From Ensifer sp. WSM1721 (GTDB lineage: Bacteria; Pseudomonadota; Alphaproteobacteria; Rhizobiales; Rhizobiaceae), in assembly GCF_000513895.2 (NCBI RefSeq), contig NZ_CP165785.1, positions 290,667 to 354,666 of the forward strand: a DNA stretch of 64,000 nt. The letters are read 5' to 3'. How positions within the stretch are numbered: position 1 is the stretch's first letter; each line of letters starts with the position of its first letter. This document shows positions 13,660 through 35,798 of this stretch, piece after piece. The position numbers and the translations under genes are program-made. Under the pieces are notes generated by a model. It saw only the letters and a list, made by a program, of their open reading frames with translations. It was not told where the DNA came from and made no database searches.

Positions 13660-13679
13660 ATTAATTAACGCTCATTAAT
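13660..13679. promoter_or_regulatory. Predicted TetR operator upstream of the aldehyde dehydrogenase operon
   Basis: ATTAATTAACGCTCATTAAT matches the palindromic consensus ATGAATGAACGTTCATTAAT that recurs through the island. It lies in the 314-base gap 13564-13877 between the aldehyde dehydrogenase start and the permease stop, which holds no gene. Predicted to control the 12-gene operon descending to 2.46 kb. Confidence 0.7.
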
Positions 13680-13877
13680 TCACCTATCATGAAGCGAGTC
13701 AATATCCTTGGCGGCCTTTTCATAAAATCGATGAACTCCCCGCCCTGAACTTTGATCCCCGTCTCAGCGCATGTTTACGGCCCCGGTGAGCGTGCCCACC
13801 GACGCCGCGCGCACTCGTCAAATGCAGTTCAGGCTCTTAGAAAGCGTGCAGGCGCATCTGCACAGCCACTTGTCCTG

Positions 13878-15353
13878 TTAAAGGGTGGGGACGACTTCAT
13901 GTGACGAAGCGACAGCCGTAGTGTGCCGGTATCCGCCCTTGCCGGCAGGAATGACAAACATCCTCATAACCAGGTAGTACGTCACGCCGGCAACAATCAC
14001 GGTCGGTATGCCTGCTCCCAACGCATGGGCTAACGGATGCATCGCCGCCGTCACCGGATTGTACAGAAAGAGGTACAAGGCAATCGACAGCACCGATATC
14101 GCGACGGCTACCCAATTGACGCCCCCCCAAAACCAATACTGGCTAGCAGGATCGCGCGTGAAAAGATGCGCCGGCGCCAGCGTCTCTTTCCGAAGAATGA
14201 AATAGTCGACAAAGGTGACGCCCGTGATGCCGACGAACATGACGCCATTATAGGAGAGCCAGCTCATCACGATAGAGAGAGTCCATTCCGTTCTAAACGC
14301 CACATAGACGCCCGGTAGCAGCATCAAAGCGATCAAAATATCCCACCGGACGCGCGTCAATGGCTTGATTTGCTGGATCGAAACGCCGGCGAGATAGAGC
14401 ATGATGACCATCGTCGCGACGTTGGCGGCAAGAACGAAGGTCATGATAATCGAACCAAGCACGGGCCCCGCAAGCGTGATCATCCAGATCGTCGGATCGG
14501 GTGTTCCGGCGGACAGGGCCGCGAACGCGGCCACCATGGATATGAATGCAGCGCCAAGCACGCCAACCCCGACAACAGATGGGCCGACTATGTGCGAGCG
14601 ACGCTCCACCAGCCGTGTCAGTCCGCCCATTATCGGCCACCATGTCAGCGAATTGGAGATGCCGAATTCAACAGCGAGGGCAAACCCCTGGCCCGGTGTC
14701 GAAGCGAGGCGCTGATCGGCGGGAACCTGCAGCGTCCAGAGATCGGCGCCGTAATGGTAGAGCAGGATGCCAAGCATCAGCACGGTTACTAGGATATGGC
14801 CTGGCGCGATATAATTGCTGATCCGTTCAAACAGCCAAGGCCCCTTGCTTGCTACGAGCCACACTGCGAACATTGTAAACAGCGCAAGACCGATAACGAT
14901 CGGTTCGGAAGTCGGCACATCAGATCGCTCGACGGTTTGTAGGACGTTTGCCGCTCCTCGTGCGGTAAGCGCAACGACCACGTATGTCCAACCGATGCAA
15001 GTCGCAAGCAGGCCAAACAGCGGCAGCACGATGCCATAAGGGCCAAACGAGGCCTTGGCGGCATCGATCGGCTCGACGCCGTATTTGAAGGATGGCATCC
15101 CAGACGCCAAGACAACGACAGCCATGCCGATCAGCATGCCCGCGAGGTAACCCAGTACCCCTATTCGGACGTCGCCCACATAGGGCAGAAAGCCGCCGAT
15201 GAGGAACGCCCAAGTCGCGGCACTAAAGGCCGTGCAGGTCCAAAGGAACGAGCCGTAGCCTTTGTAGACACGTTCGCTGCTGCGTAGAGGTAGGCGCCCG
15301 GAAAGCGCCTCTTCCATTACTCGAGACTGAGTGAGTTTGATATCGCTGCTCAT
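13878..15353 (-). CDS. NCS1-family permease (nucleobase/hydantoin:cation symporter type)
   Basis: 491 residues, with about 12 hydrophobic segments from residue 33 to 470, so an inner-membrane carrier. The first helix region SFLWTCTAFSAATWAFLIGG and the WWPIMGGLTRLVE segment fit the NCS1 family (cytosine, allantoin, hydantoin carriers). It probably imports the regulon's substrate or a related ring compound with H+ or Na+. It lies 12 bases below a small one-helix protein gene and shares its promoter, which faces the tetR gene across the operator at 15701. Confidence 0.85.
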   Translation of the reverse strand: MSSDIKLTQSRVMEEALSGRLPLRSSERVYKGYGSFLWTCTAFSAATWAFLIGGFLPYVGDVRIGVLGYLAGMLIGMAVVVLASGMPSFKYGVEPIDAAKASFGPYGIVLPLFGLLATCIGWTYVVVALTARGAANVLQTVERSDVPTSEPIVIGLALFTMFAVWLVASKGPWLFERISNYIAPGHILVTVLMLGILLYHYGADLWTLQVPADQRLASTPGQGFALAVEFGISNSLTWWPIMGGLTRLVERRSHIVGPSVVGVGVLGAAFISMVAAFAALSAGTPDPTIWMITLAGPVLGSIIMTFVLAANVATMVIMLYLAGVSIQQIKPLTRVRWDILIALMLLPGVYVAFRTEWTLSIVMSWLSYNGVMFVGITGVTFVDYFILRKETLAPAHLFTRDPASQYWFWGGVNWVAVAISVLSIALYLFLYNPVTAAMHPLAHALGAGIPTVIVAGVTYYLVMRMFVIPAGKGGYRHTTAVASSHEVVPTL

Positions 15354-15365
15354 TGGTCTTCCTCC

Positions 15366-15584
15366 TCAGCCGAGATACATCAAGGTGGCGACCCAGATAA
15401 CCACCCCGAGAACGCCCCAGCTTGCGGCTTCGACAAAGCAGGCGCGGGTGGGGGCACAGCACTCCGAAGCTGTGTGCGGAGACTCTCCCAAGGATTGAAT
15501 ACGCCTGGAGAGCTCCGCATCCAGCGCCGCTTCAAACCGCTCGCGGGTGTCGGGTGGATAAACCCGTTCCAATTCGACTGACAT
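15366..15584 (-). CDS. Small one-helix membrane protein next to the NCS1 permease
   Basis: 72 residues: a charged N-terminal part (ERVYPPDTRERFEAAL) and one C-terminal hydrophobic segment (SWGVLGVVIWVATLMYLG) that would span the inner membrane with the tail almost at its end. It lies 12 bases upstream of the permease. Small membrane partners of secondary carriers are known in other transporter families; for NCS1 I know of none, so a transporter-subunit role is inference. No family recognised. Confidence 0.65.
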   Translation of the reverse strand: MSVELERVYPPDTRERFEAALDAELSRRIQSLGESPHTASECCAPTRACFVEAASWGVLGVVIWVATLMYLG

Positions 15585-15700: not shown

Positions 15701-15720
15701 ATGAATGAACGATCATTAAT
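15701..15720. promoter_or_regulatory. Predicted TetR operator between permease genes and tetR
   Basis: ATGAATGAACGATCATTAAT, nearly a perfect palindrome, 117 bases upstream of the 72-residue ORF and about 200 upstream of tetR. It lies in the 334-base divergent intergenic region 15585-15918, which otherwise holds only the putative tetR promoter. Confidence 0.75.
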
Positions 15721-15859
15721 ATTCATCCTTTGCCGCTAATATGTCAAGTCATGGTCCGGACGCGACGGGGCGAAATGGGCCTGCTCAGCCAGTTGAAAAA
15801 ACTCGCGTCGTCTCCGCTCTGACGATATTGGACAGCCCGGCGATTTTCTGTTCGCTCCT

Positions 15860-15888: not shown

Positions 15889-15918
15889 GTGAATAGGTAT
15901 TCATAAGGACGAAAAATT

Positions 15919-16617
15919 GTGAACGAACTCGCCCGCAGCTATCAGGAAGCCGCTTCTGAGGAGGTCGAACGGACACGGCGTCGAGCCGGCCAAGGCGGCA
16001 AGGTATCAACGAGCCGCTCCGACACCCGCGAGAGGTTGCTCGACGCTGCAATTGAGCTTTTCGGTTCCCGCGGCTTTGATGCCACCTCGATGCGGGACAT
16101 CGCCACCGAGGTCGGAATCAAGGCACCTGCAGTCTACAACCATTACAAGTCCAAGGAGGAACTGCTCGGCGAGGCCGTGACGGAGGCTTTGAGCGCGTTC
16201 AACGAGGCGATCGCAGCAGCCGATGCGGAGGGAAGCTCTCCACTTGAAAGGCTTCAGAGCGCTATAACCGCTCACATTATGTACCAGATCAATCACTCCC
16301 GGATAGCTCAAGCGAACGATCGTCTTCTCGAGTCCGGCATTCTGAACAGGTTGGATCCTGCGGTCAGACATCGGGTGAAAGGCATGATGAGGGAACATCT
16401 CGACCGACTCACCAAGATCATTGAAGCTATACCATCGCCCGCGACCAACTCTCATCCCGAGGCCCGGCTAACGGCGCTCGCAATCATAACGATGTGTGAT
16501 AATGTCCTGAATTGGTATCGGCCCAGCGGGTCCTACACGCCCGAGAAGATCTGCAAGCACTTCTATCGCCTTGTCCATAGCATGCTGCTTGGACCAGAGC
16601 GTGCTTCGGAGAGTTGA
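15919..16617 (+). CDS. TetR-family transcriptional regulator of the catabolic island
   Basis: 232 residues from a GTG start. The TetR N-terminal helix-turn-helix is at residues 34-80 (TRERLLDAAIELFGSRGFDA, then MRDIATEVGIKAPAVYNHYK); the remainder is an all-helical ligand domain. An N-terminal extension of about 33 basic residues precedes the HTH. The only regulator in the first 33 kb, it is divergent from the permease and surrounded by units that all carry the same palindrome, so it is the obvious candidate to bind them and to release them on sensing a pathway compound or acyl-CoA (inference). Confidence 0.9.
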   Translation: MNELARSYQEAASEEVERTRRRAGQGGKVSTSRSDTRERLLDAAIELFGSRGFDATSMRDIATEVGIKAPAVYNHYKSKEELLGEAVTEALSAFNEAIAAADAEGSSPLERLQSAITAHIMYQINHSRIAQANDRLLESGILNRLDPAVRHRVKGMMREHLDRLTKIIEAIPSPATNSHPEARLTALAIITMCDNVLNWYRPSGSYTPEKICKHFYRLVHSMLLGPERASES

Positions 16618-16690: not shown

Positions 16691-17059
16691 TCACACCTGC
16701 TCCGCTTCGCGTTGGAGCCTGATGCGCCAATCAACTGGAGCAATCGCGATAAATACCAGACTCTCAACGCCATTGTATGCGAGTTCGGTGTCCTTGGGGA
16801 TCCAGACCACGTCGCCTGGATTCAACGTGTGCAGTGTTTCTCCAGTGCGGAGGTGAAACTCGCCCTCGATACAAACAATTACCTCATCGTACCGCACAGT
16901 CCAGGGCACGGAACGCCCGTGAAAACGAGCGAGATAGGCACCCATTGTCGAGCTGTCCTGCGGCCCGACGAGCCGCGCTATTGACGCCTCGCCGGGACCT
17001 TCGCCGTAAGCTGCGAAAGCCGTTAAGCCCTGCCGGAATACCGTCGGTTCGATGTACAT
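16691..17059 (-). CDS. Cupin-domain protein (EutQ-like)
   Basis: With the ATG at 17059 (MYIEPTVFRQG) it has 122 residues. A single beta-barrel cupin: YDEVIVCIEGEFHLRTGE as motif 1 and NPGDVVWIPKDTELAY as motif 2, with the wording of EutQ-type cupins. The canonical metal-histidines are mostly replaced, so it may bind a ligand rather than a metal. It stands alone, convergent with tetR, with a predicted TetR operator 75 bases upstream, so it should belong to the regulon. Possible isomerase, acetate-kinase-like or sensing role; unknown. Confidence 0.75.
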   Translation of the reverse strand: MYIEPTVFRQGLTAFAAYGEGPGEASIARLVGPQDSSTMGAYLARFHGRSVPWTVRYDEVIVCIEGEFHLRTGETLHTLNPGDVVWIPKDTELAYNGVESLVFIAIAPVDWRIRLQREAEQV

Positions 17060-17133
17060 CGCTATGTTCCTGTTCGCGCCGTCGCGATCGTCACGGGCAA
17101 GCGCCATCCGTCTTTCCGATGGGGCATCGCCAA

Positions 17134-17153
17134 ATGAATGACCATTCATTAAT
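17134..17153. promoter_or_regulatory. Predicted TetR operator upstream of the cupin gene
   Basis: ATGAATGACCATTCATTAAT, differing from the consensus palindrome at two central positions. It lies 75 bases upstream of the cupin start at 17059. Confidence 0.7.
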
Positions 17154-17336
17154 ACTCATGGTAGGTCCTGTCAAACCGCGCCACGGGGTCCTCGGACCGT
17201 GAGGTCGACGTCGCAAGTTTTCACGCGGACGGGAGCCTTCGTTGCCAAGAAGCTTGTCGCCGGCAATCTGTTCCGCTTCCAGCAAGCGAATCCATCATAG
17301 ACTCTTGCACATTCTGGCGATTGATGCCGCACGAGA

Positions 17337-18407
17337 TCAGCGCTTCAGACGAAAGTGTCCGACGGTCAATTCTCGCCCATTCATAATACCGGCGGGGCGG
17401 AGGATCATTACCAGAATCATAACGATGCCGAGCCCTACCTCCTGAAAGCCGCGGGGAAGCGCGAGCAAAGTATCGCCGAGGTGGATACCAACTTCGAAGC
17501 GTCGGAGCATCTCGGTTACTGCGGTCAACGCGATCACCCCGACGACGGCACCCGACAGGCTACCCGAGCCCCCCACAATCAGCATGGCAAGGGTCAGGAA
17601 AGTTACGTCGAGATAAAACGCGTCGACGGTTACAATTCCCAGAAATCCGGCCTGCATTGCTCCGCCGACACCCATGATAAGGCCTGAGAGTCCAAAGGCT
17701 ATTGTGCGAACCAGCCACACATTCACGCCGGAGGCCTTCGACGCGGTTTGCTCATCACGCGCAGCGCGTAACATAAGTCCAAAGCGGCTTTGGTGATGGA
17801 GCCACGCAATGAGAACGGCGCCGATAGCCAGAAGGGTGCCGATCGCGGAAGTCATGAAAACAGGGACGTTCGCCAGAGAAGAGGTGCCGCCCGTGACGCC
17901 GGTCCAGTTCCGAAAAAGAGCATATTGACCGGCCAGCAGTGAAAAGGTTGCGATCGACGCGGCCGTTCCCGAAAGTCGCATCAGAATGCTGCCGATTACC
18001 AGAGCACTGCCGCCGGCCAGCGCCGCAGCGGCTGCAATTCCCGCGGGCGATGGCAGCGCCGTCTCCTGTAACACGATTGGCAATCCGGGAAGATACAGAG
18101 GCTTCAACGCCGGCAGCGTACAGCAGCTGATCCAGACGAAGGCGTAGGCCCCGATCGACATGAAGCTGACATGTCCGAAAGAGAGGATTCCGGAATTGCC
18201 AATGAAAATGTAGAGACCGACGACAAGTACGACTCGGATCGTCATCTCTGTCATGGTCTGGGCCAAACTTGAGAAGGGAAGGCTTGACGCCAGCAATCCC
18301 AGAAGCACTAGGCACAAGATGAATGGAGTTTCGAACCGTTTCATAGAGTGGCTGGAGCTCGATAGCGGCACGGCTATGCAAGTAGTAGGGGCGGTTTGCT
18401 CCTTCAC
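17337..18407 (-). CDS. Branched-chain-amino-acid-type ABC transporter permease (LivM-like)
   Basis: 356 residues with 8-10 membrane segments; the cytoplasmic coupling loop is FGLMLRAARDEQTASKASGV. It starts 3 bases after the LivH-like gene. The first ~20 residues are polar and the true start may be the internal Met at MKRFETPF. It is the last gene of a seven-gene unit (binding protein, HyuA, HyuB, two ATPases, two permeases). HAAT-type importers carry amino acids, amides, urea and aromatic acids, so the name Liv reflects family, not substrate. Confidence 0.88.
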   Translation of the reverse strand: MKEQTAPTTCIAVPLSSSSHSMKRFETPFILCLVLLGLLASSLPFSSLAQTMTEMTIRVVLVVGLYIFIGNSGILSFGHVSFMSIGAYAFVWISCCTLPALKPLYLPGLPIVLQETALPSPAGIAAAAALAGGSALVIGSILMRLSGTAASIATFSLLAGQYALFRNWTGVTGGTSSLANVPVFMTSAIGTLLAIGAVLIAWLHHQSRFGLMLRAARDEQTASKASGVNVWLVRTIAFGLSGLIMGVGGAMQAGFLGIVTVDAFYLDVTFLTLAMLIVGGSGSLSGAVVGVIALTAVTEMLRRFEVGIHLGDTLLALPRGFQEVGLGIVMILVMILRPAGIMNGRELTVGHFRLKR

Positions 18408-18410
18408 CGG

Positions 18411-19325
18411 TCAGACCCTTTCTTCGAATTGCTTCAGCCGGATGATGCCGGAGGGGCGTACCAACAGCAGCGCGATTACGAACAGGAATACGAAAACGTC
18501 GCGAAAGGCGCGAATGCCGTCGGGCAAATAGGCCTGCAAAAGCGATGACGCCGCACCCACCAGCAATCCGCCCAACACAGCGCCGGGGAGGCTGCCCATG
18601 CCGCCCACTACCGTCGCGATGAATGCGAATATGATGATGTCGCTAGCCATGGTGGGCGCAAGGACGCCGGTCTGCACGACGAAAAGCAGCGATACGACGC
18701 CCGCCAGCAAACCGCTAATCGCGAAGGACAACGCGATCACAAAATCTGCCCGGACGCCTAGAAACCGTGCCATGCGGAAGTCGTCTGCCGCAGCGCGCAT
18801 CTGGATGCCGAATGGTGTTTTGCGCATGAACAACAGCAGGCCTAAAAGGAGGCCGGCCGTGACACCGATCGTGACGAGTTGTAGGAGCGGTACTCGCAAA
18901 CCGCCGACATCGATCACCTGCGTCAACGACGACCACAGGCCCAACGCCTTGGGGCGGGCCCCGTAGACGGTCATGATGAGGTTCTGAATGACATAGCCAA
19001 GCGCAAAGGAAACGACCATCAGGTTCTGGGGGCTCGCGGTGCGCATTCGTCTGAACACCGCGAAATTGGACAGCAGCGCTACAACCACGCCGAACGTCAG
19101 GATCGCCGCAATGAGGAGCGGCCAGCTCAGGCTGCCGATGAACAGTGTTGAGACCACGTCAGTGGAAGGCAGAATCAGAGCGTAAGCCGAAAGTGCTACG
19201 AAATCGCCATGCGCGAAGTTGATCAGACGCATGATTCCGAACAACAGCCCGATTCCGAGCGCCGCGAGGGCATAGAGACTGCCAAGACTCAAAGCATCGA
19301 TCAGTGTCTGCAGGAAGTGAATCAT
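18411..19325 (-). CDS. Branched-chain-amino-acid-type ABC transporter permease (LivH-like)
   Basis: 304 residues; hydrophobic throughout with the LivH start pattern (LGSLYALAALGIGLLFGIMR) and the coupling loop TPFGIQMRAAADDFRMARFL. Partners with the LivM-like protein to form the membrane channel. Its start overlaps the stop of the LivF-like ATPase gene by four bases. Confidence 0.9.
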   Translation of the reverse strand: MIHFLQTLIDALSLGSLYALAALGIGLLFGIMRLINFAHGDFVALSAYALILPSTDVVSTLFIGSLSWPLLIAAILTFGVVVALLSNFAVFRRMRTASPQNLMVVSFALGYVIQNLIMTVYGARPKALGLWSSLTQVIDVGGLRVPLLQLVTIGVTAGLLLGLLLFMRKTPFGIQMRAAADDFRMARFLGVRADFVIALSFAISGLLAGVVSLLFVVQTGVLAPTMASDIIIFAFIATVVGGMGSLPGAVLGGLLVGAASSLLQAYLPDGIRAFRDVFVFLFVIALLLVRPSGIIRLKQFEERV

Positions 19326-20077
19326 ACCGTTCCCCCCGCGCTGTCATGGTCAAATGTGCCAGCACCGAAATACGCGTCGTGCAGGGTTTCCGCGCCGAGC
19401 GCAGACGGCTTCCCTCGAAGTTGCACGGCGCCCTCACGTAGAACGATGATCTCGTCGGCGTACTTCATGACGCGACGCGAGCTCTGCTCGTTCACGAGGA
19501 GACTTAACCCCTCCTCGGTACGCAACCGCTGCAGGATGTCATAGACTTCGTCGACTATCCGGGGCGCCAAACCGAGGCTTGGCTCATCGATCAGCACCAG
19601 CCGAGGGCGACACATCAATGCGCGACCAATTACAAGCATCTGCTGCTCTCCACCCGACATTTTTCCTCCGGGCTGGCGAAGTCGCTCCTTCAGGCGCGGG
19701 AAGTAACCGAACACCCGCTCAAGATCGATCTCGACCGCGTTCCGGTCCTTTCGTCTGAATGTTCCCACCCTCAGGTTCTCTTCGACAGTCAGACTGGAAA
19801 AAACATGTCTCCCCTCGGGCACAAACGACAGGCCGGCCGCGGCGATCACCTCCGGAGCGGCGCCGGTAATGTCTTTGCCTTCGAAGACGATCGTTCCAGA
19901 GCTTACTGTGTTTCCGCCAGCAATTGCGCCGAGCGTAGACGACTTCCCGGCGCCATTAGGTCCAATGATAGCTATCAGGCCCTTTGTCGGAACTTCGAAA
20001 GACACGCCGTTCAGTACCATCGCTCTGCCGTAGCCGAGACGCAGCCCCCGAACCTGAAGGATATCATCGACCATCAT
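19322..20077 (-). CDS. ABC transporter ATPase (LivF-like)
   Basis: 251 residues; Walker A GPNGAGKSS, signature KMSGGEQQML, Walker B RLVLIDEPSLGLAP, and an LLVNEQSS switch region in place of the usual LLVEQN. The start is ATGATG at 20077/20074, four bases below the LivG-like gene. It energises import with its LivG-like partner. Confidence 0.92.
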   Translation of the reverse strand: MMVDDILQVRGLRLGYGRAMVLNGVSFEVPTKGLIAIIGPNGAGKSSTLGAIAGGNTVSSGTIVFEGKDITGAAPEVIAAAGLSFVPEGRHVFSSLTVEENLRVGTFRRKDRNAVEIDLERVFGYFPRLKERLRQPGGKMSGGEQQMLVIGRALMCRPRLVLIDEPSLGLAPRIVDEVYDILQRLRTEEGLSLLVNEQSSRRVMKYADEIIVLREGAVQLRGKPSALGAETLHDAYFGAGTFDHDSAGGTV

Positions 20078-20080
20078 GGC

Positions 20081-20815
20081 TCATCCCTCTGCACCCAGGT
20101 AGGCGTCAATGACTGCCCGGTCATTGCGGACTTCGGCGGCTCGTCCTTGGGCCAATGTGCGTCCCCCATCGAGGACGTGGACGCGGTCGCAAAGCCCTAG
20201 CACCACTGCCATGTTGTGCTCGATCAGCAGGATACCGCAGCCTTGCTCCAGCCGGATTATGCGGATCAGCGCCGTCAGCTGCTCGCATTCGTGGTCCGAC
20301 ATTCCTGCTGCCGGCTCATCCAGAAGCAAGAAGTCCGGCTTCATCAGGAGTGCTCTCGCGATCCCAACACGGCGCTCATCGGTATAGGGCAGGGTGCCGG
20401 CAAGCTGATGGGCAAATTGCGCGATCCCCATCCAGTCCAACAATTCAGAGGCCTTCCGCTGCGCCGCCCTTCGCGACAGACCGAGCGCCACGCCGGTGAC
20501 TTCGACATTATCGAGCACCGACATGTCACGGAACAATCGGCCGCCCTGAAATGTTCGTGCCACCCCCGCCTTCCGGAAGGCCGCCGCGTCCCAGCGGACC
20601 GTATCTTGCCCGCCGAGCCTAACACGTCCTTCGGTAGGCAGTTGAAAACCTGAGAGGCAGTTGACAAGTGTAGTTTTGCCAGCGCCGTTCGGCCCGATCA
20701 GCCCGAGGATCTCACCCTTTTCGAGAGTGAGCGACACACCTGAGATCGCTCGCAAACCGTCGAACGTCACCGAAACCGCCTCGGCGGCCAAGCTGGGAGG
20801 AACAGCCGCGTTCAT
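20081..20815 (-). CDS. ABC transporter ATPase (LivG-like)
   Basis: 244 residues; Walker A GPNGAGKTT, Walker B DFLLLDEPAAGM, H-loop IEHNM, and the Liv-type signature LPYTDERRVGIARAL in place of canonical LSGGQ. The gap to the upstream HyuB-like gene is 73 bases. Confidence 0.92.
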   Translation of the reverse strand: MNAAVPPSLAAEAVSVTFDGLRAISGVSLTLEKGEILGLIGPNGAGKTTLVNCLSGFQLPTEGRVRLGGQDTVRWDAAAFRKAGVARTFQGGRLFRDMSVLDNVEVTGVALGLSRRAAQRKASELLDWMGIAQFAHQLAGTLPYTDERRVGIARALLMKPDFLLLDEPAAGMSDHECEQLTALIRIIRLEQGCGILLIEHNMAVVLGLCDRVHVLDGGRTLAQGRAAEVRNDRAVIDAYLGAEG

Positions 20816-20888
20816 CTGTGCCTCCGGTAGCGGTCATCGAGAGCACGACGAACCATGATTTGCCTGCGGATGAATTGCGAGAAGGGCA

Positions 20889-22673
20889 TCAGCCAATACC
20901 CCGCAGTAACGCAGTCCCAATCTCGTCCACCGCCAGCGAATCGTTGGCAATGGATCCTGTGAACACCACGCCATAGAGATCACGGGCGCGCTCGATTGTT
21001 TCGTAACCCTCCAAGACATCCTTGCGAACAAGCTCGACGTCGCGCGCTAGCGGATTACCGTAGCCGCCCCCGGACGTGTGCCAACCCCGAAGCCGCTCAC
21101 CCTTTTGTAATGTCCTGACGACCATGCTCGGGAGTTCCTCGGCGGCACCATCTGCGCTGACGAGCCAGTGCTGGGACGTTATACCGTCCCTGCCGCCCCG
21201 CACGCCCTTCGGCGCGGTCTCAAGCCCGTCACAGTTCCAGATGAACTCGATTGGGCTGTCCTTCGGCGTGATCGACATCTCGAGCGCCGGGCCCCCCCGG
21301 AATTCACCTGCGCCGCCAGTTCCCGATTTAAGCCTGCAGTACTCAACCTCGAAAGGATGCTTTAGTTCGTCGATCTCGATTGAGTCGCGATACATCAGAC
21401 CGGCAACAACAGGGATGGAGTAGGTTGGCCAGCCGTCAGCTGATGGACTGCCAGGACCTCCTGCCGATCCAATGCAGATCTGATTCACGTAGGATGTCGC
21501 TCCGTAGCGATGGTCGTTGCCAGAAACAACCGCAAAACCGAGCCCGACACCCACACCGCCTTCTGCGAGTCCCCATTCGGCGCTGACGCGGGCAAATGCC
21601 GACTGCACGACATTCACCACGCGGTCTGCGATGTTCGTGGTTGAGACTGAGCAACTGTGTGGAAAACGCGGTTTTCCGAGGATCGAGCCCTCGCGGAACC
21701 GCAGACGGATGCGGCGGAAGGAGCCATCATTGCGCGGCACCCGAATGCTCATCGAGTTGAACACACCCGCCACAGCTGCCGCAGAAGCAGAGGCCAGGCT
21801 AAGATTCAAGCCAACCGGAAGGCTGTCGACGTTCTCGGTCAGATCAATCTCGATCATGGCCGCTTCCGGATCGATCTCCAGTGATACCCGCAGAGGTACA
21901 CCGTCCGGGAGCAGCCCCGGCAGTGCATCGTGACGGCCTGAATTCGACAGTCGAGTCCGAGGCATCTGCTGAAGCGCCTTAACCATCAGCTCTTCAGAAT
22001 AGTCGAGCCAATCGTTGATGAACGCCCGTATCTGCTCCTTGCCGTACTTGCCGCAGAGCTCTTTCAATCGCCGTTCGGCGATCCTGGCCGATCCGATTCC
22101 TGCCAGAAAATCACCATACCATTGATTGGGAACGCGGATCCGCGCGCGGCACATGCGCACGATATCCTCGTTCATCTTGTAGTCTCGCTGGACTCTCACT
22201 GCCGGAAAAATCAGTGCGCCCTCCGCATACTGGTCGCGCGCGCCTGCCATGTAGGTGGTCGGAAGCGCGTTACCGATGTCGGCCTGATGCGCTTTGGCCA
22301 CTGCGGTGAACATATGTTCGCCGTCGATAAACACAGGCACGAGAAACGCGTGGTCTGCGGGATGGCTGTTGCCGTTATAGGGATCGTTATGGAGGTAGCA
22401 GTCCCCCTCGCGCAGGTCATGGCCGTGGAACTTCTGCATTGCTGATGTCAGCAGATCCGATCCGAAGATGTGGATCGGCAGCCCTTCGGCGGATGCGAGC
22501 AGTCGATTGTCAGAGGTCACGATCGAACAGCTGAAATCTCGAGCACTATTGATCACGGCGGAGCGCGCCGACCTCAACATCGCGTTCGTCATCTCGCGGA
22601 TGATGCTGTCGATGCGGTTAGCAATGATTGCAGTCAGGAAGGGATCGAAGCTCGAGCTTACCGGCTGTTCCAT
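20889..22673 (-). CDS. Hydantoinase B / oxoprolinase family subunit (HyuB-like)
   Basis: 594 residues from MEQPVSSSFDPF; an AAGGAGG lies just upstream of this ATG, and the gene follows hyuA-like by 11 bases. It shows the family marks RDFSCSIV, DCYLHNDPYNGNSHPADHAF, and the glycine-rich C-terminal GGPALEMSI...RGGRDGI and SGGGYGNP. HyuA/HyuB pairs use ATP to open lactam-like or hydantoin rings (5-oxoproline, N-methylhydantoin, caprolactam) or, in carboxylase relatives, to carboxylate ketones. The substrate is not determined by these motifs. Its place between a solute-binding protein gene and transporter genes ties ring opening to uptake. Confidence 0.9.
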   Translation of the reverse strand: MEQPVSSSFDPFLTAIIANRIDSIIREMTNAMLRSARSAVINSARDFSCSIVTSDNRLLASAEGLPIHIFGSDLLTSAMQKFHGHDLREGDCYLHNDPYNGNSHPADHAFLVPVFIDGEHMFTAVAKAHQADIGNALPTTYMAGARDQYAEGALIFPAVRVQRDYKMNEDIVRMCRARIRVPNQWYGDFLAGIGSARIAERRLKELCGKYGKEQIRAFINDWLDYSEELMVKALQQMPRTRLSNSGRHDALPGLLPDGVPLRVSLEIDPEAAMIEIDLTENVDSLPVGLNLSLASASAAAVAGVFNSMSIRVPRNDGSFRRIRLRFREGSILGKPRFPHSCSVSTTNIADRVVNVVQSAFARVSAEWGLAEGGVGVGLGFAVVSGNDHRYGATSYVNQICIGSAGGPGSPSADGWPTYSIPVVAGLMYRDSIEIDELKHPFEVEYCRLKSGTGGAGEFRGGPALEMSITPKDSPIEFIWNCDGLETAPKGVRGGRDGITSQHWLVSADGAAEELPSMVVRTLQKGERLRGWHTSGGGYGNPLARDVELVRKDVLEGYETIERARDLYGVVFTGSIANDSLAVDEIGTALLRGIG

Positions 22674-22684
22674 CTTGTCCTCCT

Positions 22685-24763: not shown

Positions 24764-24785
24764 GCTTGCTCTTTTCCACCTAACT

Positions 24786-24801
24786 GGTCGCTCCAGCGAC
24801 C
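24786..24801 (-). other. Intergenic stem-loop between binding-protein gene and hyuA-like gene
   Basis: A GGTCGC/GCGACC inverted repeat with a four-base loop, in the 79-base gap. There is no T-run, so it is more likely a transcript-stabilising or attenuating hairpin than a full terminator. Confidence 0.4.
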
Positions 24802-24842
24802 CCAGCGCTTCGACGCCGGGATCAGTCTTTTTGCCAAGCGGA

Positions 24843-26089: not shown

Positions 26090-26128
26090 CCTTATGAACG
26101 TTCGTTCGTCTAATTAACGTTCATTCAT
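26090..26128. promoter_or_regulatory. Two adjacent predicted TetR operators upstream of the importer/HyuAB operon
   Basis: 26109-26128 reads TCTAATTAACGTTCATTCAT (strong match on the reverse strand); 26090-26109 reads CCTTATGAACGTTCGTTCGT (weaker). The central AACGTTC cores are 19 bases apart, so bound dimers would lie on adjacent turns of the helix. It is the only doubled site in the island and lies 12 bases from the binding-protein start. Confidence 0.7.
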
Positions 26129-27702: not shown

Positions 27703-27745
27703 TGGCTTCTCCCGTCACGAGGCCGCATTTTTCCTGTTCGCCCCG

Positions 27746-28516: not shown

Positions 28517-28528
28517 TGGCGTTTTCCG

Positions 28529-29302
28529 TCACTCGCGAGGAAGCGATTCTGCGATGTAGAGGTTGGCGAGCACGCCGCAATCCACGGGCAAGTCTACCCC
28601 GGTAATTCCGCTTGCCTCGTTGCTGCCGAGGAAGGCGACGGCTCGGGCGATCTCGTCGATCTCGACCAAGCGGCCCATAGGCACGCGCGCGAACCCATCC
28701 TTGATGGCCCGCAAGGCCGCGTCAGGAAGGTGATCACCAACCATCGCGGTCAGCGTCCAGCCTGGACTAACCGAATTGACGCGGATGCGATAGGGAGCCA
28801 GCTCGACTGCGGCCGTTTTTGTTAGGTTGATGAGACCAGCCTTAGCGGCTCCGTAGGCTGACTGACGACCATCCATGCCGCGCGCATCTATCGAAGCGAT
28901 GTTGACGATCGCGCCGCCACCTGTTGCCCGCATTCTTCGCGCTGCACGCTGTGTGACGAGAAAGGCTCCAGTCAGATTGACTTCGACGACCGAGCGCCAG
29001 CGCGCAATATCCATCTTCAGGATCGACTTGTAGTCCGCGACTCCGGCATTGTTTACCAGAAGTGAAAGCGGACTTGCTGTATCTTCAAACCGGGTCATCA
29101 CCCGCTCAACGTCGTCCTCGACAGTGGAATCTGCCACAACCGCATGGACCGGACCAAGAGAGCCAAGCTCGGACGCCGCCTGCGCGAGATCCTCATGGTT
29201 GCGACCAGTAATAGTCACGTCATATCCCCTGCGCAGGAGACAGGCTGCAATGCCGTATCCTATGCCTTTTGAGCCCCCCGTCACCACCGCGTTCAACGTC
29301 AT
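28529..29302 (-). CDS. Short-chain dehydrogenase/reductase (SDR), paralogue of the one at 8.9-9.7 kb
   Basis: 257 residues; TGGSKGIGYG, NNAGVA, catalytic Ser in NIASIDARG and YGAAK. The C-terminus ITGVDLPVDCGVLANLY is shared with the SDR at 8924-9718. NAD(P)-dependent alcohol/carbonyl oxidoreductase; substrate unknown. It follows the BKACE gene by 54 bases. Confidence 0.9.
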   Translation of the reverse strand: MTLNAVVTGGSKGIGYGIAACLLRRGYDVTITGRNHEDLAQAASELGSLGPVHAVVADSTVEDDVERVMTRFEDTASPLSLLVNNAGVADYKSILKMDIARWRSVVEVNLTGAFLVTQRAARRMRATGGGAIVNIASIDARGMDGRQSAYGAAKAGLINLTKTAAVELAPYRIRVNSVSPGWTLTAMVGDHLPDAALRAIKDGFARVPMGRLVEIDEIARAVAFLGSNEASGITGVDLPVDCGVLANLYIAESLPRE

Positions 29303-29356
29303 TTCTCCACCCAGTCACACGCGAGGAGGCGGCACTGGGTGCCGCCCACTCTTGGA

Positions 29357-30370
29357 TCAGATCTTCAGAGTCATTAGATTGCGGTATTCGTCCGCTGTCA
29401 TCAACTCTCGCCCGAGCGCGGCTGCAATGCCCGAGATCTGCTGAAAGACCTCGACATTCGACTGGATCTTGTCGTCCCGATGGGGCCACTTCCAAACCGT
29501 GTCCTCCATGCCGACCCGAACATGCACGCCGAGCAGAATGGCGAGCGTCGCCAGATAGCTGCTGGTACGACCGCCCGTGCAAGCGATGATGGTCGAGTCA
29601 GTATCGATATGGCGAATAAGCCGAACGAGCCGAAGGAATCCATCCACCATCGTTTCGGGGGAGTACATTGGGCTGCATCCCGGAAGGCCAGGTAGCACGA
29701 GCCAGTTGAGCGGACCCTGAATGAGGCCGCTGTCGATCAGGTAGCGGCGGGCATTGTCGATGTCAGCATCGGTGTAGACTGCAATCTGCGGGGTCAGCCC
29801 AGCGTCGATCGCACGCTTGGTCTTCTCGATGATGGCAGCCGGCGATTTGACGAAGTGATTGTCGCCGAGAATGATGGCCGTCGTGTTGACCGGCACGCCC
29901 TCCATCACGCCGAGCTGCATCATCTCGGACATCATACGCTCTTCGTCTGCGTTCACGGCCACCAAACACGCATCCAGTGCAACATGTGGATGGTTTGTGC
30001 GTAGGTGTGTCAGCGTCTCGCGGAACAAGCCGGTGTCGAGCACATTATAGCCGCGTTCGTCTCTCGCGTGGATATGGATGATCTGCGCCCCGGCAGCGAT
30101 GCATTCCTCAGCGGATTGGATGATCTCTTCGGGCGTGATCGCCTGGTGCGGGTTTTCGTTCTTCGTATAGAAAGCCCCGTTAATCGCGGTCGACAGGATC
30201 AGCTTCGGCGGGGCTTCCCACCTCGGCATCGGCTCGGCGTTCGAAAACGCCGTCCGGTCGATCGACATGATCGACGGAAAACCGAATACCTTCCAGTTCG
30301 CCTGAGCCCCCTCGCGGGAAACCCATTTGTTCACCTGCTCCCAGTTCACGGTGTTTGGTTTGCGCGCCAT
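29357..30370 (-). CDS. Beta-keto acid cleavage enzyme (BKACE, DUF849 family)
   Basis: 337 residues from MARKPNTVNWEQ; the ATG at 30370 has GGGAGG five bases upstream. BKACE enzymes are metal-dependent and condense a beta-keto acid with acetyl-CoA to give acetoacetate plus a new acyl-CoA. Family marks are LSTAINGAF near residue 60, AGAQIIHIHARDE (metal-binding HIHAR) and VRVGMEDTVW. An N-terminal extension of about 55 residues before the barrel is longer than in 3-keto-5-aminohexanoate cleavage enzyme (Kce). The acetoacetate would be used by the CoA-transferase encoded at 31.9-33.2 kb. Confidence 0.92.
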   Translation of the reverse strand: MARKPNTVNWEQVNKWVSREGAQANWKVFGFPSIMSIDRTAFSNAEPMPRWEAPPKLILSTAINGAFYTKNENPHQAITPEEIIQSAEECIAAGAQIIHIHARDERGYNVLDTGLFRETLTHLRTNHPHVALDACLVAVNADEERMMSEMMQLGVMEGVPVNTTAIILGDNHFVKSPAAIIEKTKRAIDAGLTPQIAVYTDADIDNARRYLIDSGLIQGPLNWLVLPGLPGCSPMYSPETMVDGFLRLVRLIRHIDTDSTIIACTGGRTSSYLATLAILLGVHVRVGMEDTVWKWPHRDDKIQSNVEVFQQISGIAAALGRELMTADEYRNLMTLKI

Positions 30371-30392
30371 CGGCACCTCCCTAGTTGCTGAT

Positions 30393-30412
30393 ATGAATGA
30401 ACGTTAATGCAT
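30393..30412. promoter_or_regulatory. Predicted TetR operator upstream of the BKACE operon
   Basis: ATGAATGAACGTTAATGCAT, 23 bases upstream of the BKACE start. The left half matches the consensus exactly. Confidence 0.72.
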
Positions 30413-30512: not shown

Positions 30513-30532
30513 ATGAATTAACGTTCATTATG
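30513..30532. promoter_or_regulatory. Predicted TetR operator upstream of the reductase/CoA-transferase operon
   Basis: ATGAATTAACGTTCATTATG, ending 10 bases before the chosen start codon at 30542. It would block the 5' end of the + transcript if occupied. Confidence 0.72.
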
Positions 30533-30541
30533 GAGAGGCCG

Positions 30542-31678
30542 ATGAGCCCGACAATCATGATGGTGGGGGTGGGGCAGATGGGCAGGAGCGCTCTGTCGAT
30601 TCTGGCTCGCGCGCTGCCCGCCGCCAAATTCATTCTTGTTGATCGTTCCGACGAAAGCCTGAGACGTGGTGAGGCCGTCGCGCCCGACCGCATAAGGACC
30701 CATCAAGCTGACATCGCGCGCGACGGCCTCGATGCGGCTGGCATGGACTTGGTTGTGAACTTCGCCGGTCCATTCTTCCTGGGCTCGGATGGGGCAGCCC
30801 GCGCCGCAATTGCCGCCGGTGCGGCTTACATCGACGTCGGCGACGACGCGGAAGGTACGAAGACGATCCTCGAGCTCGACAACGCTGCGAAATCGAAGGG
30901 CGTGCCGGTGATTACAGGTGGCGGCCTTTCACCGGGCGTTTCGAATTGGCTGGCCTGCAGCCTGCTTGAGAGCCACCCGGAGCTCGATGGTATCAAGATT
31001 GTCTGGATCACTCGTGAACCGGATCCGGGTGGCCTCGCTGTGCTGCGCCACATGCTGCACATGGCAGTGGCGCCTTGCCCTACTTGGCGCAACGGCAAGA
31101 TGGAGTTCACCAAGGGTTTTGTGCCAGAGACCGCAGAAAGCTTTGACGTGCCGCCTCCTTTCAACCGGATCGAGGCCTATGACACGGCCCATCCGGAGCC
31201 GGTCACACTCGGGCGCTTTCGACGCGATCTTGCCCTTGTCCAGTGCAAGGGTTCGCTCTTCCCCAATTGGGCGAATGCCGCCTTCTCGACGCTTGGACGT
31301 ATCGGGTTCGGCCACTCGGAGATTACCGTCGAAATTGACGGCAAGGAAGTGCAACCGATCGAAGTGCTTTGGAAGTTGCTCTGGAAACGCCATGAACTGA
31401 AGCCAAGCGGTCAACGGATCTCGGCGACCCAGGTAAATGTGATCGGGACGAAAGGGAACGTCCCGGTCAGCATGAAGTCGATCACGGACGCGGGAGACAT
31501 GAGCCGGGGCACGGGGCTGGGCATGGCGGCCGCGGCACTGTCGCTTCTAGAGGGTGGCGTTTCAGCGGGAGCCAACGGAGTGGAGGCAATTCCCTACCAG
31601 AAAGGCCTCGACCACTTCCTGCGTCTCGCCGCAGAAGCGGGGACTTTCGCGGACGGCATTGTGACCACCAATTTCTAA
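30542..31678 (+). CDS. Saccharopine-dehydrogenase-like NAD(P)-dependent oxidoreductase, second copy
   Basis: 378 residues from MSPTIMMVGVGQMGRS; the ATG at 30542 follows GGAGAGG by a few bases, whereas the alternative ATG at 30530 overlaps the predicted operator and has no ribosome site. Rossmann motif at the N-terminus, then VVNFAGPFF and YIDVGDDAEG. Distant paralogue of the protein at 9715-10890, with GGLSPGVSNW matching its GSSPGTTN. It is divergent from the BKACE gene and co-directional with the CoA-transferase genes. Confidence 0.82.
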   Translation: MSPTIMMVGVGQMGRSALSILARALPAAKFILVDRSDESLRRGEAVAPDRIRTHQADIARDGLDAAGMDLVVNFAGPFFLGSDGAARAAIAAGAAYIDVGDDAEGTKTILELDNAAKSKGVPVITGGGLSPGVSNWLACSLLESHPELDGIKIVWITREPDPGGLAVLRHMLHMAVAPCPTWRNGKMEFTKGFVPETAESFDVPPPFNRIEAYDTAHPEPVTLGRFRRDLALVQCKGSLFPNWANAAFSTLGRIGFGHSEITVEIDGKEVQPIEVLWKLLWKRHELKPSGQRISATQVNVIGTKGNVPVSMKSITDAGDMSRGTGLGMAAAALSLLEGGVSAGANGVEAIPYQKGLDHFLRLAAEAGTFADGIVTTNF

Positions 31679-31876
31679 ACGCGCAACGGCAGTCCTCAGT
31701 GGTCATCAACAACCACCGGGATCGAACAAGGCCTGCGTTCGATTTTCTAAAACCCGCGCGAGCCAATGGCAGCGATGTGCCCGACTCGAGAACCCCGGAG
31801 GCGGGGAACGCGAAAACGTCACAACCACCCCTGCCACACGCAAGTGCGTCGAGCACAGAATTCAAAGGGGATAGGG

Positions 31877-32578
31877 ATGAACAAGATCTATTCGTCCGCC
31901 GAGGCCGCACTTGAGGGCCTCCTTTTCGACGGAATGACGATTGCGTCGGGCGGCTTCGGGCTGTGCGGAATCCCCGAACTTCTGATTTCCGGGATAAGGG
32001 ACGCCGGAACGAAGGAGATTACCATCGCCTCCAACAATTGCGGCGTCGATGACTTCGGGCTCGGCATCCTTCTCAAGACGCGGCAGATCAAGAAGATGAT
32101 TTCATCCTATGTGGGCGAGAACGCCGAGTTCATGCGACAGTTTCTTTGTGGGGAGCTGGAACTGGAGTTCAATCCCCAGGGCACACTTGCCGAACGCATG
32201 CGCGCTGGCGGCGCCGGCATTCCCGCCTTCTACACTCCTACCGGTGTGGGGACTGTCATTGCCGAAGGCAAGGAGCATAAAGTGTTCGATGGTAGGACTT
32301 ATATTCTCGAACGCGCGATCGTTGCCGACGTCTCCATCGTCAAAGCCTGGAAGGCCGATCCCACCGGCAACCTTGTGTTCCGAAAAACGGCACGCAACTT
32401 CAATCCGCCTGCTGCCACGTGCGGCAAGATCTGCGTCGCAGAGGTAGAGGAGATTGTGCCCTTGGGCTCGCTCGATCCTGACCACATTCACCTGCCGGGG
32501 ATCTATGTCCACCGCCTTATCCCAGGGCAGCACCTGAAACGCATAGAGCAGCGAACTGTTCGCCACCGCGAGGCGTAA
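31877..32578 (+). CDS. scoA: 3-oxoacid CoA-transferase subunit A
   Basis: 233 residues from [15 protein letters not shown] behind AAAGGGG. Family I CoA-transferase alpha subunit: [27 protein letters not shown]. It most likely moves CoA from succinyl-CoA to acetoacetate, the product of the BKACE reaction; 3-oxoadipate (PcaI) is the main alternative. A gap of 198 bases without a gene separates it from the reductase gene. Subunit B follows after 3 bases. Confidence 0.92.
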
Positions 32579-32581
32579 GAC

Positions 32582-33211
32582 ATGGCTTGGGACCGCAATC
32601 AAATGGCCGCTCGTGCTGCTCAGGAATTGCAGGACGGCTGGTATGTAAACCTTGGTATCGGCATTCCGACCCTGGTTTCGAACTATATTCCCGAGGGCAT
32701 AAAGGTGACCTTGCAGTCGGAGAACGGAATGCTGGGTATGGGTCCTTTCCCTTACGATGGGGAGGAGGACCCCGACCTTATTAACGCAGGTAAACAGACG
32801 ATCACGGAACTTCCGCAGACCGCCTATTTCGACAGCGCAACGTCATTTGGCATGATCCGTGGCGGCAAAATAGCCATGGCGATCCTTGGCGCGATGGAGG
32901 TTTCTGAAGAAGGGGATCTCGCCAACTGGATGATTCCGGGCAAACTCGTCAAGGGCATGGGCGGGGCCATGGACCTGGTCGCCGGCGTGGGGCGCGTGGT
33001 GGTTCTCATGGATCACACGAATAAGGCGGGAGAGTCGAAGATCCTGGCGAGATGCACGCTGCCGCTAACCGGAAAAGGCGTGGTGAACCGGATCATAACT
33101 AACCTTGGTGTGCTGGATGTTATGCCGGGCGGGCTGAAGATCGTGGAATTGGCGCCAGGGACGACGGAGTATGATCTCCGAAGAGCAACGGAGGCGCGAA
33201 TAATCGTGTGA
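32582..33211 (+). CDS. scoB: 3-oxoacid CoA-transferase subunit B
   Basis: 209 residues. NLGIGIPTLV at the start and the catalytic glutamate in LQSENGMLGMGP, typical for the beta subunit. With subunit A it makes acetoacetyl-CoA (or a related 3-oxoacyl-CoA). No thiolase gene is in the window, so final cleavage must rely on an enzyme encoded elsewhere. Confidence 0.93.
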   Translation: MAWDRNQMAARAAQELQDGWYVNLGIGIPTLVSNYIPEGIKVTLQSENGMLGMGPFPYDGEEDPDLINAGKQTITELPQTAYFDSATSFGMIRGGKIAMAILGAMEVSEEGDLANWMIPGKLVKGMGGAMDLVAGVGRVVVLMDHTNKAGESKILARCTLPLTGKGVVNRIITNLGVLDVMPGGLKIVELAPGTTEYDLRRATEARIIV

Positions 33212-33438: not shown

Positions 33439-33461
33439 ATGGCCGGGCAGTGCCCGGCCAT
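33439..33461. terminator. Perfect inverted repeat between convergent scoB and chemoreceptor genes
   Basis: Two 11-base arms (ATGGCCGGGCA and its complement) around one base, in the 313-base gap 33212-33524. It has no T-run on either strand but is placed where a bidirectional terminator would be expected. No gene is seen in the rest of the gap. Confidence 0.45.
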
Positions 33462-33524
33462 GGTGCTGGTATTCCTCGGTCCAGCTACTGTAATGCCGGA
33501 CGGTGGCTGGCTAATGAGTTATAC

Positions 33525-35740
33525 TTAGGCCGCTCGTTGGAGGCGGAACGCTAAGTCTTCATGAGCCCTTTCAGAGATACGGAAACGACCCACTGCCTCG
33601 ATTAACAGGCGTGCCTCATCTCTTAAAGATATACTAGCGGCGGTTGTCTCCTCGACCATAGCCGCATTCTGCTGCGTGACTTGGTCCATCTGATCTACCG
33701 AAGCGCTGACGCCTCTCAATCCCAAGGATTGCTCGCCGGCAAATGTCGAGATCTGCTGAACATTTTCATTGATCGCCGTAATCTGCGCTGTAATCCGGCT
33801 CAGTGCGTTTCCGGCCTCTCCGACGAGCTCAACTCCTTCCCGGCCTGTGTTGCGGAGGAGTTGATGAGCCCTTTGATGTCCTTGGCGGCGACAGCTGAGC
33901 GCTGTGCAAGCTCTCGAACTTCTTGGGCGACGACCGCGAATCCCTTTCCAGCCTCACCTGCGCGGGCCGCTTCGACGCCCGCATTCAGGGCAAGAAGATT
34001 TGTCTGGAAAGCGATCTCGTCGATAACGCCGGTAATTCGGGTGATCTCTTGGGACGACCGGTTGATACTTTTCATCGACAGAATTGCCCTGCCGACGATG
34101 TCGCCTGTGGCCAGAGTATCCTCGGTTGCTACCGCAACGCTCGACGATGCCGCGCGAGCCTTGGTCGCACTTGCCTGAACCTGCTCTGTCAATTCCGCCA
34201 TCGCTGCGGCCGTTTCTTCCAGACCTGCGGCCTGCAGCTCTGTCCTGCGCGCCAAGTCGCTAGCACCTGTGCTGATCTCCTCGATGCCGGCGCTGATTTG
34301 GCAGACACCTCTGCCGACGAGCCCGATCGTTTGCTCCAAACTGTCCAATGCTGAATTGAAATCGACCTGCAACTTTTGATATTCCCCAGGGAAATCCTCG
34401 CTGATGCGGCAGGTTAGATTCCCCGTCGCCAGTTCGTTCAGCGCCTCGCCGACAACCCTGACAATATGACGCTGGATTTCGACTGACGCAGCACGAGTTG
34501 CTTCCGCCTCGGCGCGCTCGCGCGAGTTCGCCTGCCTTGCTACCTCGGCATCTTCTTCGGCATGCTTGGCTTGGATGAGTGCGCCACGCAGCTTCTCAAG
34601 TGCGGCTGCGATCACCCCTATTTCGTCCGAGCGCGAAGCGTCGGGGGCAGGCGTACTGTAGTCCCCGATGGCCAACGCTTCCACCGTTGCGACAAGGCGT
34701 GCGATCGGCCGCTGAATCATCGTTTTTGTGGTTATGAAGAGGGTGAGCGCGATCGCGACGACTACAAGGATGCCAGCTGTGACCATTAGGTTGATCTGCT
34801 CATTCACGGCAGAACTGATCACGGTATTGGGGATATCAACGCAAACAACCCAATTCACGTTGAGCCCAGGAACCTCAAACGGCAGCAGAATGCGGCTATA
34901 GGAGACCTGATCCATCTTTACATCAGTGACAATGGCAGGCTTGCCTTCCGATAGTGCCTTGGTCAGCGTCTCCTGCCCAACACCTTCGTATTTTTTTGCA
35001 ATCAGGTCCGGCTGGGGAGCTACGATCCATCGTCCGGTCTGTGAGATCAAACGGATTCTTCCAGAACCAAACGGCCGCAGCGCAGATAGTTTTGCCGAGA
35101 GCGCTGTTAAATCTATGTCAGTGCCGGTCACGCCGATGAGCTGTTTGCCTTCTATCACGGGATAGGAGATTGTGGAAAGCAAGAACGTACCTTGCGCGTC
35201 CGTCCAAACATACGGCTCGGTCAAATGCCCTTTTTGTGATTGCGCAGCCACGCGGTAGTACTCGGCAGTATAGTCAAGCGAGACCGGCGCCATTGACAGG
35301 CGTCCGTCATTTTTTGTCCACGTCGGAGCAAAGGCACCATCTGCTGCGGTACCGAGCGCGGCATTACCCTTCAATTCGGATGCCTTGCCATCAAACGCAT
35401 TTGGCTCTTCCATAAACCAACTGCTGAGCACAATTTCAGATTGGGCATTCACCCGAAGCATGTCGATTACAGAGGCTCGGTCGAGGTAATTCTTTTCCCT
35501 GCCGTGGGCGATCAGCTCCGCCATCGTGGCAGTTGGTCCAGAGAGGGCCGCAAGCTCCGCTGATATCTCGTTTGCGAGTTTCGATGCCTCCAGCCTTGCT
35601 TGCTCAAGAGTAAGGCCTTCCATCCGGTCGCTGGTGGCGACAACAAGCACAGCATTCGACAGAAGCAAAACCATGGTAATCGAAGCGACCATTATAGCGA
35701 TCAACTTGAATGCGAGCGATCGTCCTGCAGTCATTTTCAT
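33525..35740 (-). pseudogene. Methyl-accepting chemotaxis protein, frameshifted near the C-terminus
   Basis: The ATG at 35740 has GAGGGGG upstream. Order of parts: N-terminal membrane helix, large periplasmic Cache-type sensor, second membrane helix near residue 305, HAMP, and the MCP signalling domain with the hairpin tip [21 protein letters not shown]. At about 33832-33840 one G is missing: the reading frame ends 12 codons later, but the next frame continues without a stop through [12 protein letters not shown] and QQNAAMVEETTAA to 33525, the normal end. The lost part is the C-terminal helix of the signalling hairpin, so chemotactic signalling is probably lost. A half-match to the TetR palindrome lies just upstream, so the receptor once (or still) belonged to the regulon. 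Confidence 0.85.
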
Positions 35741-35787
35741 GTTCCCCCTCAATGTGCCCAGTAGCCAGTGGAAACTATTCAAACTAC

Positions 35788-35798
35788 ATTAATGAACG
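35788..35798. promoter_or_regulatory. Half-site match to the TetR operator upstream of the chemoreceptor
   Basis: ATTAATGAACG matches the left half of the island palindrome; the right half is not conserved. It lies about 48 bases upstream of the chemoreceptor start. Confidence 0.35.

Follow-up and report, generated by a model that had tools for sequence, protein, structure and literature searches.

A recurrent palindrome at the promoters of a catabolic island in Ensifer sp. WSM1721, a probable operator of the island's own TetR-family repressor

The stretch of DNA analyzed here (the window) comprises 64,000 nucleotides of Ensifer sp. WSM1721, taken from contig NZ_CP165785.1 (C4:290667-354666) of a genome of 6,326,810 bases (6.33 Mb) in 4 contigs. 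It carries a catabolic island in which near-copies of one 20-bp palindrome stand upstream of the transcription units, together with a gene encoding a TetR-family regulator. The units, drawn from the strand and spacing of the genes, are as follows.

2463..13641, minus strand: unit 1, 11 genes (aldehyde dehydrogenase, choline-kinase-like APH phosphotransferase, saccharopine-dehydrogenase-like protein, short-chain dehydrogenase/reductase (SDR), DAO-type flavin adenine dinucleotide (FAD) oxidoreductase, SurE, SDR, SDR, electron transfer flavoprotein (ETF) beta, ETF alpha, alpha/beta hydrolase)
13878..15584, minus strand: unit 2, 2 genes (NCS1-family permease, 13878-15353; 72-amino-acid protein, 15366-15584)
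16691..17059, minus strand: unit 3, 1 gene (EutQ-like cupin)
17337..26078, minus strand: unit 4, 7 genes (substrate-binding protein, HyuA, HyuB, two ATP-binding cassette (ABC) ATPases, two ABC permeases)
26188..30376, minus strand: unit 5, 4 genes (beta-keto acid cleavage enzyme (BKACE), two SDRs, AMP-forming acyl-coenzyme A (CoA) ligase)
30542..33211, plus strand: unit 6, 3 genes (saccharopine-dehydrogenase-like reductase, 3-oxoacid CoA-transferase subunits A and B)
33800..35782, minus strand: unit 7, 1 gene (methyl-accepting chemotaxis protein with a PDC-type sensor domain)

From this arrangement we infer co-transcription within units and a regulon of about 29 genes plus tetR in seven units, in agreement with the roughly 28 genes that an earlier note on this DNA had put forward. 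The regulatory features are given below; the -35 boxes are CTTGAC-like hexamers that share 5 or more of the 6 letters and precede the dyad by 22-32 bp.

15919..16617, plus strand: TetR-family repressor gene (tetR), GTG start, domains PF00440 and PF17932, recognition helix ..APAVYNHY
15890..15903: 14-bp inverted repeat in the tetR promoter, half-site spacing unlike that of the operators
13660..13679: putative operator 1, promoter of the aldehyde dehydrogenase operon, supported by matrix and conservation; -35 box ATTGAC 13698-13703, minus strand, 28 bp from the dyad
15701..15720: putative operator 2, promoter of the small protein and NCS1 permease, 209 bp upstream of tetR; -35 box CTTGAC 15743-15748, minus strand, 32 bp from the dyad
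17134..17153: putative operator 3, upstream of the EutQ-like cupin; -35 box TTTGAC 17170-17175, minus strand, 26 bp from the dyad
26109..26128: putative operator 4, upstream of the liv importer/hyuAB; -35 box CTTGAC 26151-26156, minus strand, 32 bp from the dyad
26090..26109: weak second site, its dyad 19 bp from that of operator 4
30393..30412: putative operator 5, upstream of the BKACE operon; -35 box CTTTAC 30425-30430, minus strand, 22 bp from the dyad
30513..30532: putative operator 6, upstream of the saccharopine-dehydrogenase-like reductase/CoA-transferase; -35 box CTTGAC 30485-30490, plus strand, 32 bp from the dyad
35788..35807: putative operator 7, a degenerate site ahead of the chemoreceptor that relatives preserve better

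Every palindrome named in the earlier note was present at the position given there. When the window was searched with up to three mismatches to the 20-mer, nine strand-matches were obtained at six places, compared with none in 100 dinucleotide shuffles, and the same pattern search of the whole genome returned matches confined to these six strong places (13660, 15701, 17134, 26109, 30393 and 30513), which lie within about 17 kb at six units. Leave-one-out weight-matrix scans of the window placed six of seven sites first among the non-training positions, with 24.8-29.7 bits against 13.5-15.3 bits for the runner-up position; the seventh, at 26090, came third with 13.6 bits, so that its description as weak in the earlier note was correct. 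The maxima of 50 simulated first-order Markov windows averaged 13.2 and reached 21.4 at most, and the six strong sites stand above chance because their scores exceed these maxima. With a matrix of all sites, the highest score in the window outside the listed sites and their register-shifted overlaps was 11.3 (position 1213), and the best in the part from 36 to 64 kb, the transfer (tra/trb) region, was 9.2 (45629). The weight-matrix check set beforehand turned up no equal-scoring match elsewhere in the window, as the pattern search turned up none in the genome, and the transfer region lacks the palindrome, as had been claimed. The claim that the sites lie upstream of units also held: the site at 17134 overlaps the cupin open reading frame (ORF) as listed (16691-17149), but because homology puts the cupin start at 17059, it lies 84 bp upstream of the gene and not within it.

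The protein encoded by tetR possesses an N-terminal TetR_N helix-turn-helix (PF00440, 65.4 bits, cut-off 24) and a C-terminal ligand-binding domain (PF17932, TetR_C_24, 59.9 bits, cut-off 26.4). Seven NCBIfam TetR models match it at E values up to 1e-10, and none of the named equivalogs (FasR, BetI, AcrR, MtrR and others) passed its cut-off, the best reaching 68.5 bits against 250. Its own genome holds 35 TetR_N matches above the cut-off, 31 of which were examined together with their surroundings (about 3 kb each). Within this set, the recognition-helix motif YNH[FY] occurs in the island TetR only, and a strong site was found only near the island tetR (34.3 bits), the surroundings of the other 30 giving no more than 11.5 bits.

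The association of palindrome and TetR extends to other genomes. In a sample of 394 genomes of the family, searched with a site pattern that allows one mismatch and misses the window's own 17134 site, the island TetR is present in two, the window's own (G000) and one whose coordinates are those of the Ensifer sp. USDA 6670 record (G257). The matching places of these two lie on one contig, 5 in the first (8 strand-matches) and 6 in the second (9), and no other genome of the 394 has more than three. Another 49 genomes have 1-4 strand-matches each at no more than three places, the maxima being three places on three contigs (G065) and two on one contig (G118, G168). From 20 of these 49 genomes, 20 windows with good palindromes were picked by eye, the other 29 genomes remaining outside this set, and TetR-like ORFs, read stop to stop, were compared with those in 20 control windows from 16 of the same genomes. 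A TetR-like ORF is present in 15 of 20 look-alike windows compared with 1 of 20 controls (Fisher p = 1e-5), no more than 175 bp from the site in 14 and 836 bp from it in one, and nine of the 15 TetRs carry YNH[FY]. Given this adjacency, the palindrome class is, as far as gene neighborhood can tell, a TetR operator class. Furthermore, when 385 genomes of the class were searched with a profile, seven distant TetRs emerged besides the window's own, all from other alphaproteobacterial families and 28-31% identical to it (six of the seven aligned by tblastn). A strong palindrome precedes the TetR gene itself in four of the seven (25.9, 27.5, 26.7 and 22.5 bits), 29-93 bp before the start of the TetR profile match, and a weak one (13.8 bits) in a fifth; in about 131 kb around the distant TetRs no further match exceeded 12 bits, register-shifted overlaps aside.

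Relatives of the TetR with 81-98% identity were found in Ensifer sp. USDA 6670, in Rhizobium esperanzae and in 17 plasmid records (S. americanum, S. chiapasense, R. phaseoli, Kim5 and Pop5). Phaseolus vulgaris is named as source in 16 of the 17 plasmid records, which is not independent evidence of a host link because 13 are isolates of R. phaseoli whose identity values hardly differ, if at all. Seven relatives were compared, five plasmid loci in full and the USDA 6670 and R. esperanzae loci (L014, L015), which end 10 kb either side of tetR and leave some units outside. For the units covered, the operators stand at the same promoters in all seven as in the window. In alignments of 8, 8, 7 and 7 sequences, 19/20, 19/20, 18/20 and 16/20 site columns are invariant, compared with 31/129, 28/128, 42/130 and 38/121 (22-32%) of the matching flank columns. 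Of the eight rhizobial islands, the window and USDA 6670 alone showed operator 3. The site at 35788, which the earlier note took for a half-site, is indeed a site but not a half one: in all four relatives aligned (S. americanum, R. phaseoli, Kim5 and Pop5), its counterpart in the alignment, upstream of the related chemoreceptor, is a better palindrome than the window's and reaches 16.0-21.3 bits with the six-site matrix, and 35788 itself scores 17.5 with an extended matrix trained on the relatives' chemoreceptor sites to the exclusion of 35788. On these comparative grounds it is a degenerate full site. In S. chiapasense, two palindromes (25.0 and 20.3) lie at an inverted, more distant chemoreceptor (48%).

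The geometry of the promoters is equally regular. A -35 box in range lies on the target-gene strand at all six strong sites and on the opposite strand at none of them, for a chance background of about 6% of window positions per strand, and in the orthologues the hexamer and its distance from the dyad are preserved to within 1 bp. No CTTGAC-like box is in range at the weak 26090 site. The spacer of a sigma-70 promoter is about 17 bp. With the -35 box 22-32 bp before the dyad and such a spacer, the -10 element and the start would fall beneath the operator, where repressors classically bind, an arrangement that would fit occlusion.

Taken together, these findings make it very probable that the palindromes serve as operators for the TetR-family repressor encoded in the island (15919-16617). 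In the mechanism that we propose, a TetR dimer would bind each palindrome, over the -10 and start of a sigma-70-type promoter, and would there block RNA polymerase. The C-terminal ligand domain would then take up the substrate or, with greater likelihood, an intermediate of the pathway, and the repressor would leave, whereupon importer, permease, catabolic operons and chemoreceptor would be turned on together. Direct binding, repression rather than activation, ligand induction and the start sites are what we infer from a comparison covering site identity, confinement to the island, conservation, -35 geometry and the link to the TetR subfamily. The one-TetR regulon of the earlier note gains support from the orthologous promoters, the co-occurrence in the 394 genomes and four of the seven distant relatives. 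The second site at 26090 could possibly take a second TetR dimer beside operator 4.

Several observations weigh against this interpretation. The sites at 26090 (19.9, with a matrix including it) and 35788 (13.9) do not rise above the simulated maxima by score alone, and the chemoreceptor site is degenerate and has no CTTGAC-like box in range. The nearest operator lies 209 bp away from the start of tetR, whose promoter has an inverted repeat of a different spacing. The aligned flanks in R. phaseoli, R. esperanzae, Kim5 and Pop5 look closely related, so these orthologues are not independent; likewise, G000 and G257 are close relatives (TetR 98% identical) and amount to little more than one case. 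Five of the 20 look-alike windows have no TetR-like ORF, 6 of the 15 look-alike TetRs lack YNH[FY], a motif noticed after the fact, and of the distant relatives a fifth has a weak site (13.8 bits) and two (L127, L130) have none. The 14-bp repeat keeps its outer arms in eight of eight rhizobial sequences and is a possible autoregulation site of tetR; as a further operator it was set aside, given its differing half-site spacing. The membership of the chemoreceptor in the regulon is weaker than that of the other units. The dCache_1 match of the chemoreceptor protein is below the cut-off, and its true start may be downstream of the listed ORF start.

Three other explanations were considered. The same protein and sites might be at work with TetR as an activator or dual regulator at some units, for example at the chemoreceptor or at 26090/26109. 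The missing box near the chemoreceptor site and the paired dyads 19 bp apart would suit such a role, and TetR-family activators exist, FasR being termed one in the accessible text of PMC7382501; the geometry at all six strong sites, which puts the operator on the -10/start and fits occlusion, speaks against it, and we regard it as improbable. We likewise regard it as improbable that the palindromes serve another regulator, chromosomal or plasmid-borne, while the island TetR controls something else or itself only. This would agree with the occurrence of the palindrome class beside other TetR proteins in other genomes and with a tetR promoter devoid of an operator of that spacing; it is countered by the low scores around the other 30 TetR_N genes of the genome compared with the island tetR, by a site cluster that tracks the island TetR in the 394 genomes (in two close relatives only), and by the four of seven distant relatives with a site at their own gene. 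A reading of the palindromes as copies of a dispersed repeat, or as a run of chance similarity, without regulatory meaning is hardly credible: near-copies do lie within a plasmid-borne island whose relatives are on plasmids of several species, but the flanks differ among species while the sites stay, the promoter geometry is fixed, no match occurs elsewhere in the genome, and palindromes stand upstream of distant TetR genes.

An operator-sharing local TetR regulon of several operons is a known kind of system, to which the island TetR and its operator are new additions. BkaR is the mycobacterial TetR repressor of a branched-chain keto-acid operon; like the island regulator, it has a conserved palindrome at several promoters around its own gene and a local catabolic regulon, and its targets include scoA in M. 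tuberculosis (accessible text of PMC3920632). BkaR has a different operator core, GTTA(N)T(N4)A(N)TAAC, and is autoregulatory (same text), which the island tetR may or may not be; the likeness is one of working. Similarly, Thermus thermophilus FadR is described in the accessible part of PMC5597230 as a TetR repressor of fatty-acid genes with a palindromic operator, which differs in its consensus TTRNACYNRGTNYAA and in its pathway. The nearest solved TetR sequences (best 60 of 189) include KstR2, 3vpr, 3him and Mce3R (9b7y); compared by protein sequence, KstR2 and the other PDB TetRs are distant from the island TetR (E values from 2e-17 to 4e-11). KstR2 responds to a CoA thioester. No description of the island TetR, operator or cluster was found in the literature searched, subscription papers being outside the search.

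A more distant counterpart is present on two plasmids of Sphingobium from tomato soil (AP027315, AP027328), where a TetR 46% identical to that of the island stands beside homologues of 11 island genes (38-63%, counted outside the TetR and hydantoinase genes). Operator-like sites, weaker than those of the island, lie there upstream of SurE/BKACE (17.3 and 21.1 bits), upstream of EutH (14.5 bits, with CTTGAC 31 bp from the dyad) and beside a second TetR (15.4 and 15.2 bits), which faces HyuA in AP027328. These loci differ from the island in that EutH replaces the NCS1 permease and that neither has a chemoreceptor or CoA-transferase match. The accessible portion of the Sphingobium tomatine paper (PMC10653915) makes no mention of TetR or SurE.

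The composition of the relatives bears on how the regulon may have grown. Cupin, ligase and BKACE genes follow one another in R. esperanzae and the five plasmid relatives, and this run is not interrupted by importer/hyuAB genes. In the window and USDA 6670, an importer/HyuAB module (window 17337-26078) separates the ligase from the cupin; in the window, two SDR genes further separate the ligase from BKACE, a place that the USDA 6670 locus does not reach. The module and the cupin, which it cuts off from the BKACE promoter, each have their own operator and a -35 box of the same geometry. Two distant relatives (L124, L126) have a related TetR gene pointing away from HyuA-HyuB-HyuB, and the palindrome in the gap is weak in one and strong in the other. 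In Sphingobium TomTYG64, the cluster that encodes the 46% TetR also contains HyuAB (55-59%). TetRs of this subfamily are therefore repeatedly associated with HyuAB. Tentatively, and with doubts that we think should prevail for now, the island could be viewed as a mobile, self-contained regulon for an undescribed plant metabolite, with a core common to bean-associated rhizobia and tomato-soil Sphingobium, in which one repressor would couple catabolism of this metabolite with chemotaxis towards it and new modules would join by acquiring the operator.

The gene set, with its amine-type FAD oxidoreductase, aminobutyraldehyde-dehydrogenase-like aldehyde dehydrogenase, choline-kinase-like kinase and acyl-CoA ligase, points to an amine or amino-alcohol as the substrate, with acetoacetate as the end point of its carbon. 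BKACE and 3-oxoacid CoA-transferase act in the cleavage of a beta-keto acid to acetoacetate and in its re-activation, and the pair in the island fits these steps; DAO-type FAD oxidoreductase, ETF, aldehyde dehydrogenase, kinase and SurE suggest the amine or amino-alcohol upstream. Since only broad NCBIfam models passed their cut-offs (SurE, two CoA-transferase subfamilies and one SDR subfamily, 8924-9718), the pathway is not fixed. Judged from the sources of the carriers, the substrate is probably plant-derived. The inducer is most likely a pathway intermediate; that it is a CoA ester from the ligase seems to us rather unlikely, and the island TetR is only distantly related to known acyl-CoA sensors.

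Read in this way, a catabolic island with no assigned role becomes open to experiment: it offers a single repressor, seven promoters as its targets, an operator that can be read and a promoter set ready for use in reporters. These promoters could be used to find the inducer, and hence the compound that carriers sense and consume. The island may also serve as an example of a regulon growing by insertion of operons that carry or gain the operator of the resident repressor.

Loci with relatives of BKACE in Agrobacterium fabrum L-11 (L026) and Arthrobacter NicSoilB8 (L027), and with relatives of HyuA in Aminobacter (L028) and NZLR1 (L029), had no site above 8.2 bits and were placed outside the regulon. 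In unit 2, the 72-amino-acid protein (15366-15584, minus strand), which precedes the NCS1 permease, has one likely membrane helix by eye, and a small hypothetical protein is annotated at its position in all five annotated plasmid relatives. An IS5-family element, ISRsp18, lies between tetR and cupin in S. chiapasense S24 (L019 20774-22132), where four core operators remain. In S. americanum CCGM7 (L017) the island is on plasmid A; according to the accessible text of PMC5011921, this strain was isolated from bean seed, and its smaller plasmid is not related to the one in the nodule strain CFNEI73. The second TetR of the Sphingobium plasmids is annotated as "hypothetical protein" beside BKACE (L025 18940-19644, L022 15790-16494), and its recognition helix, IKAPAIYNHFKSK, is nearly the same. 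Palindromes of the same class also occur on the Sphingobium plasmid L025, at 33581, 37915 and 38459 (28.6, 13.8 and 26.0 bits); the genes that they precede by 44-58 bp encode a TonB receptor, a hypothetical product and a cytochrome P450.

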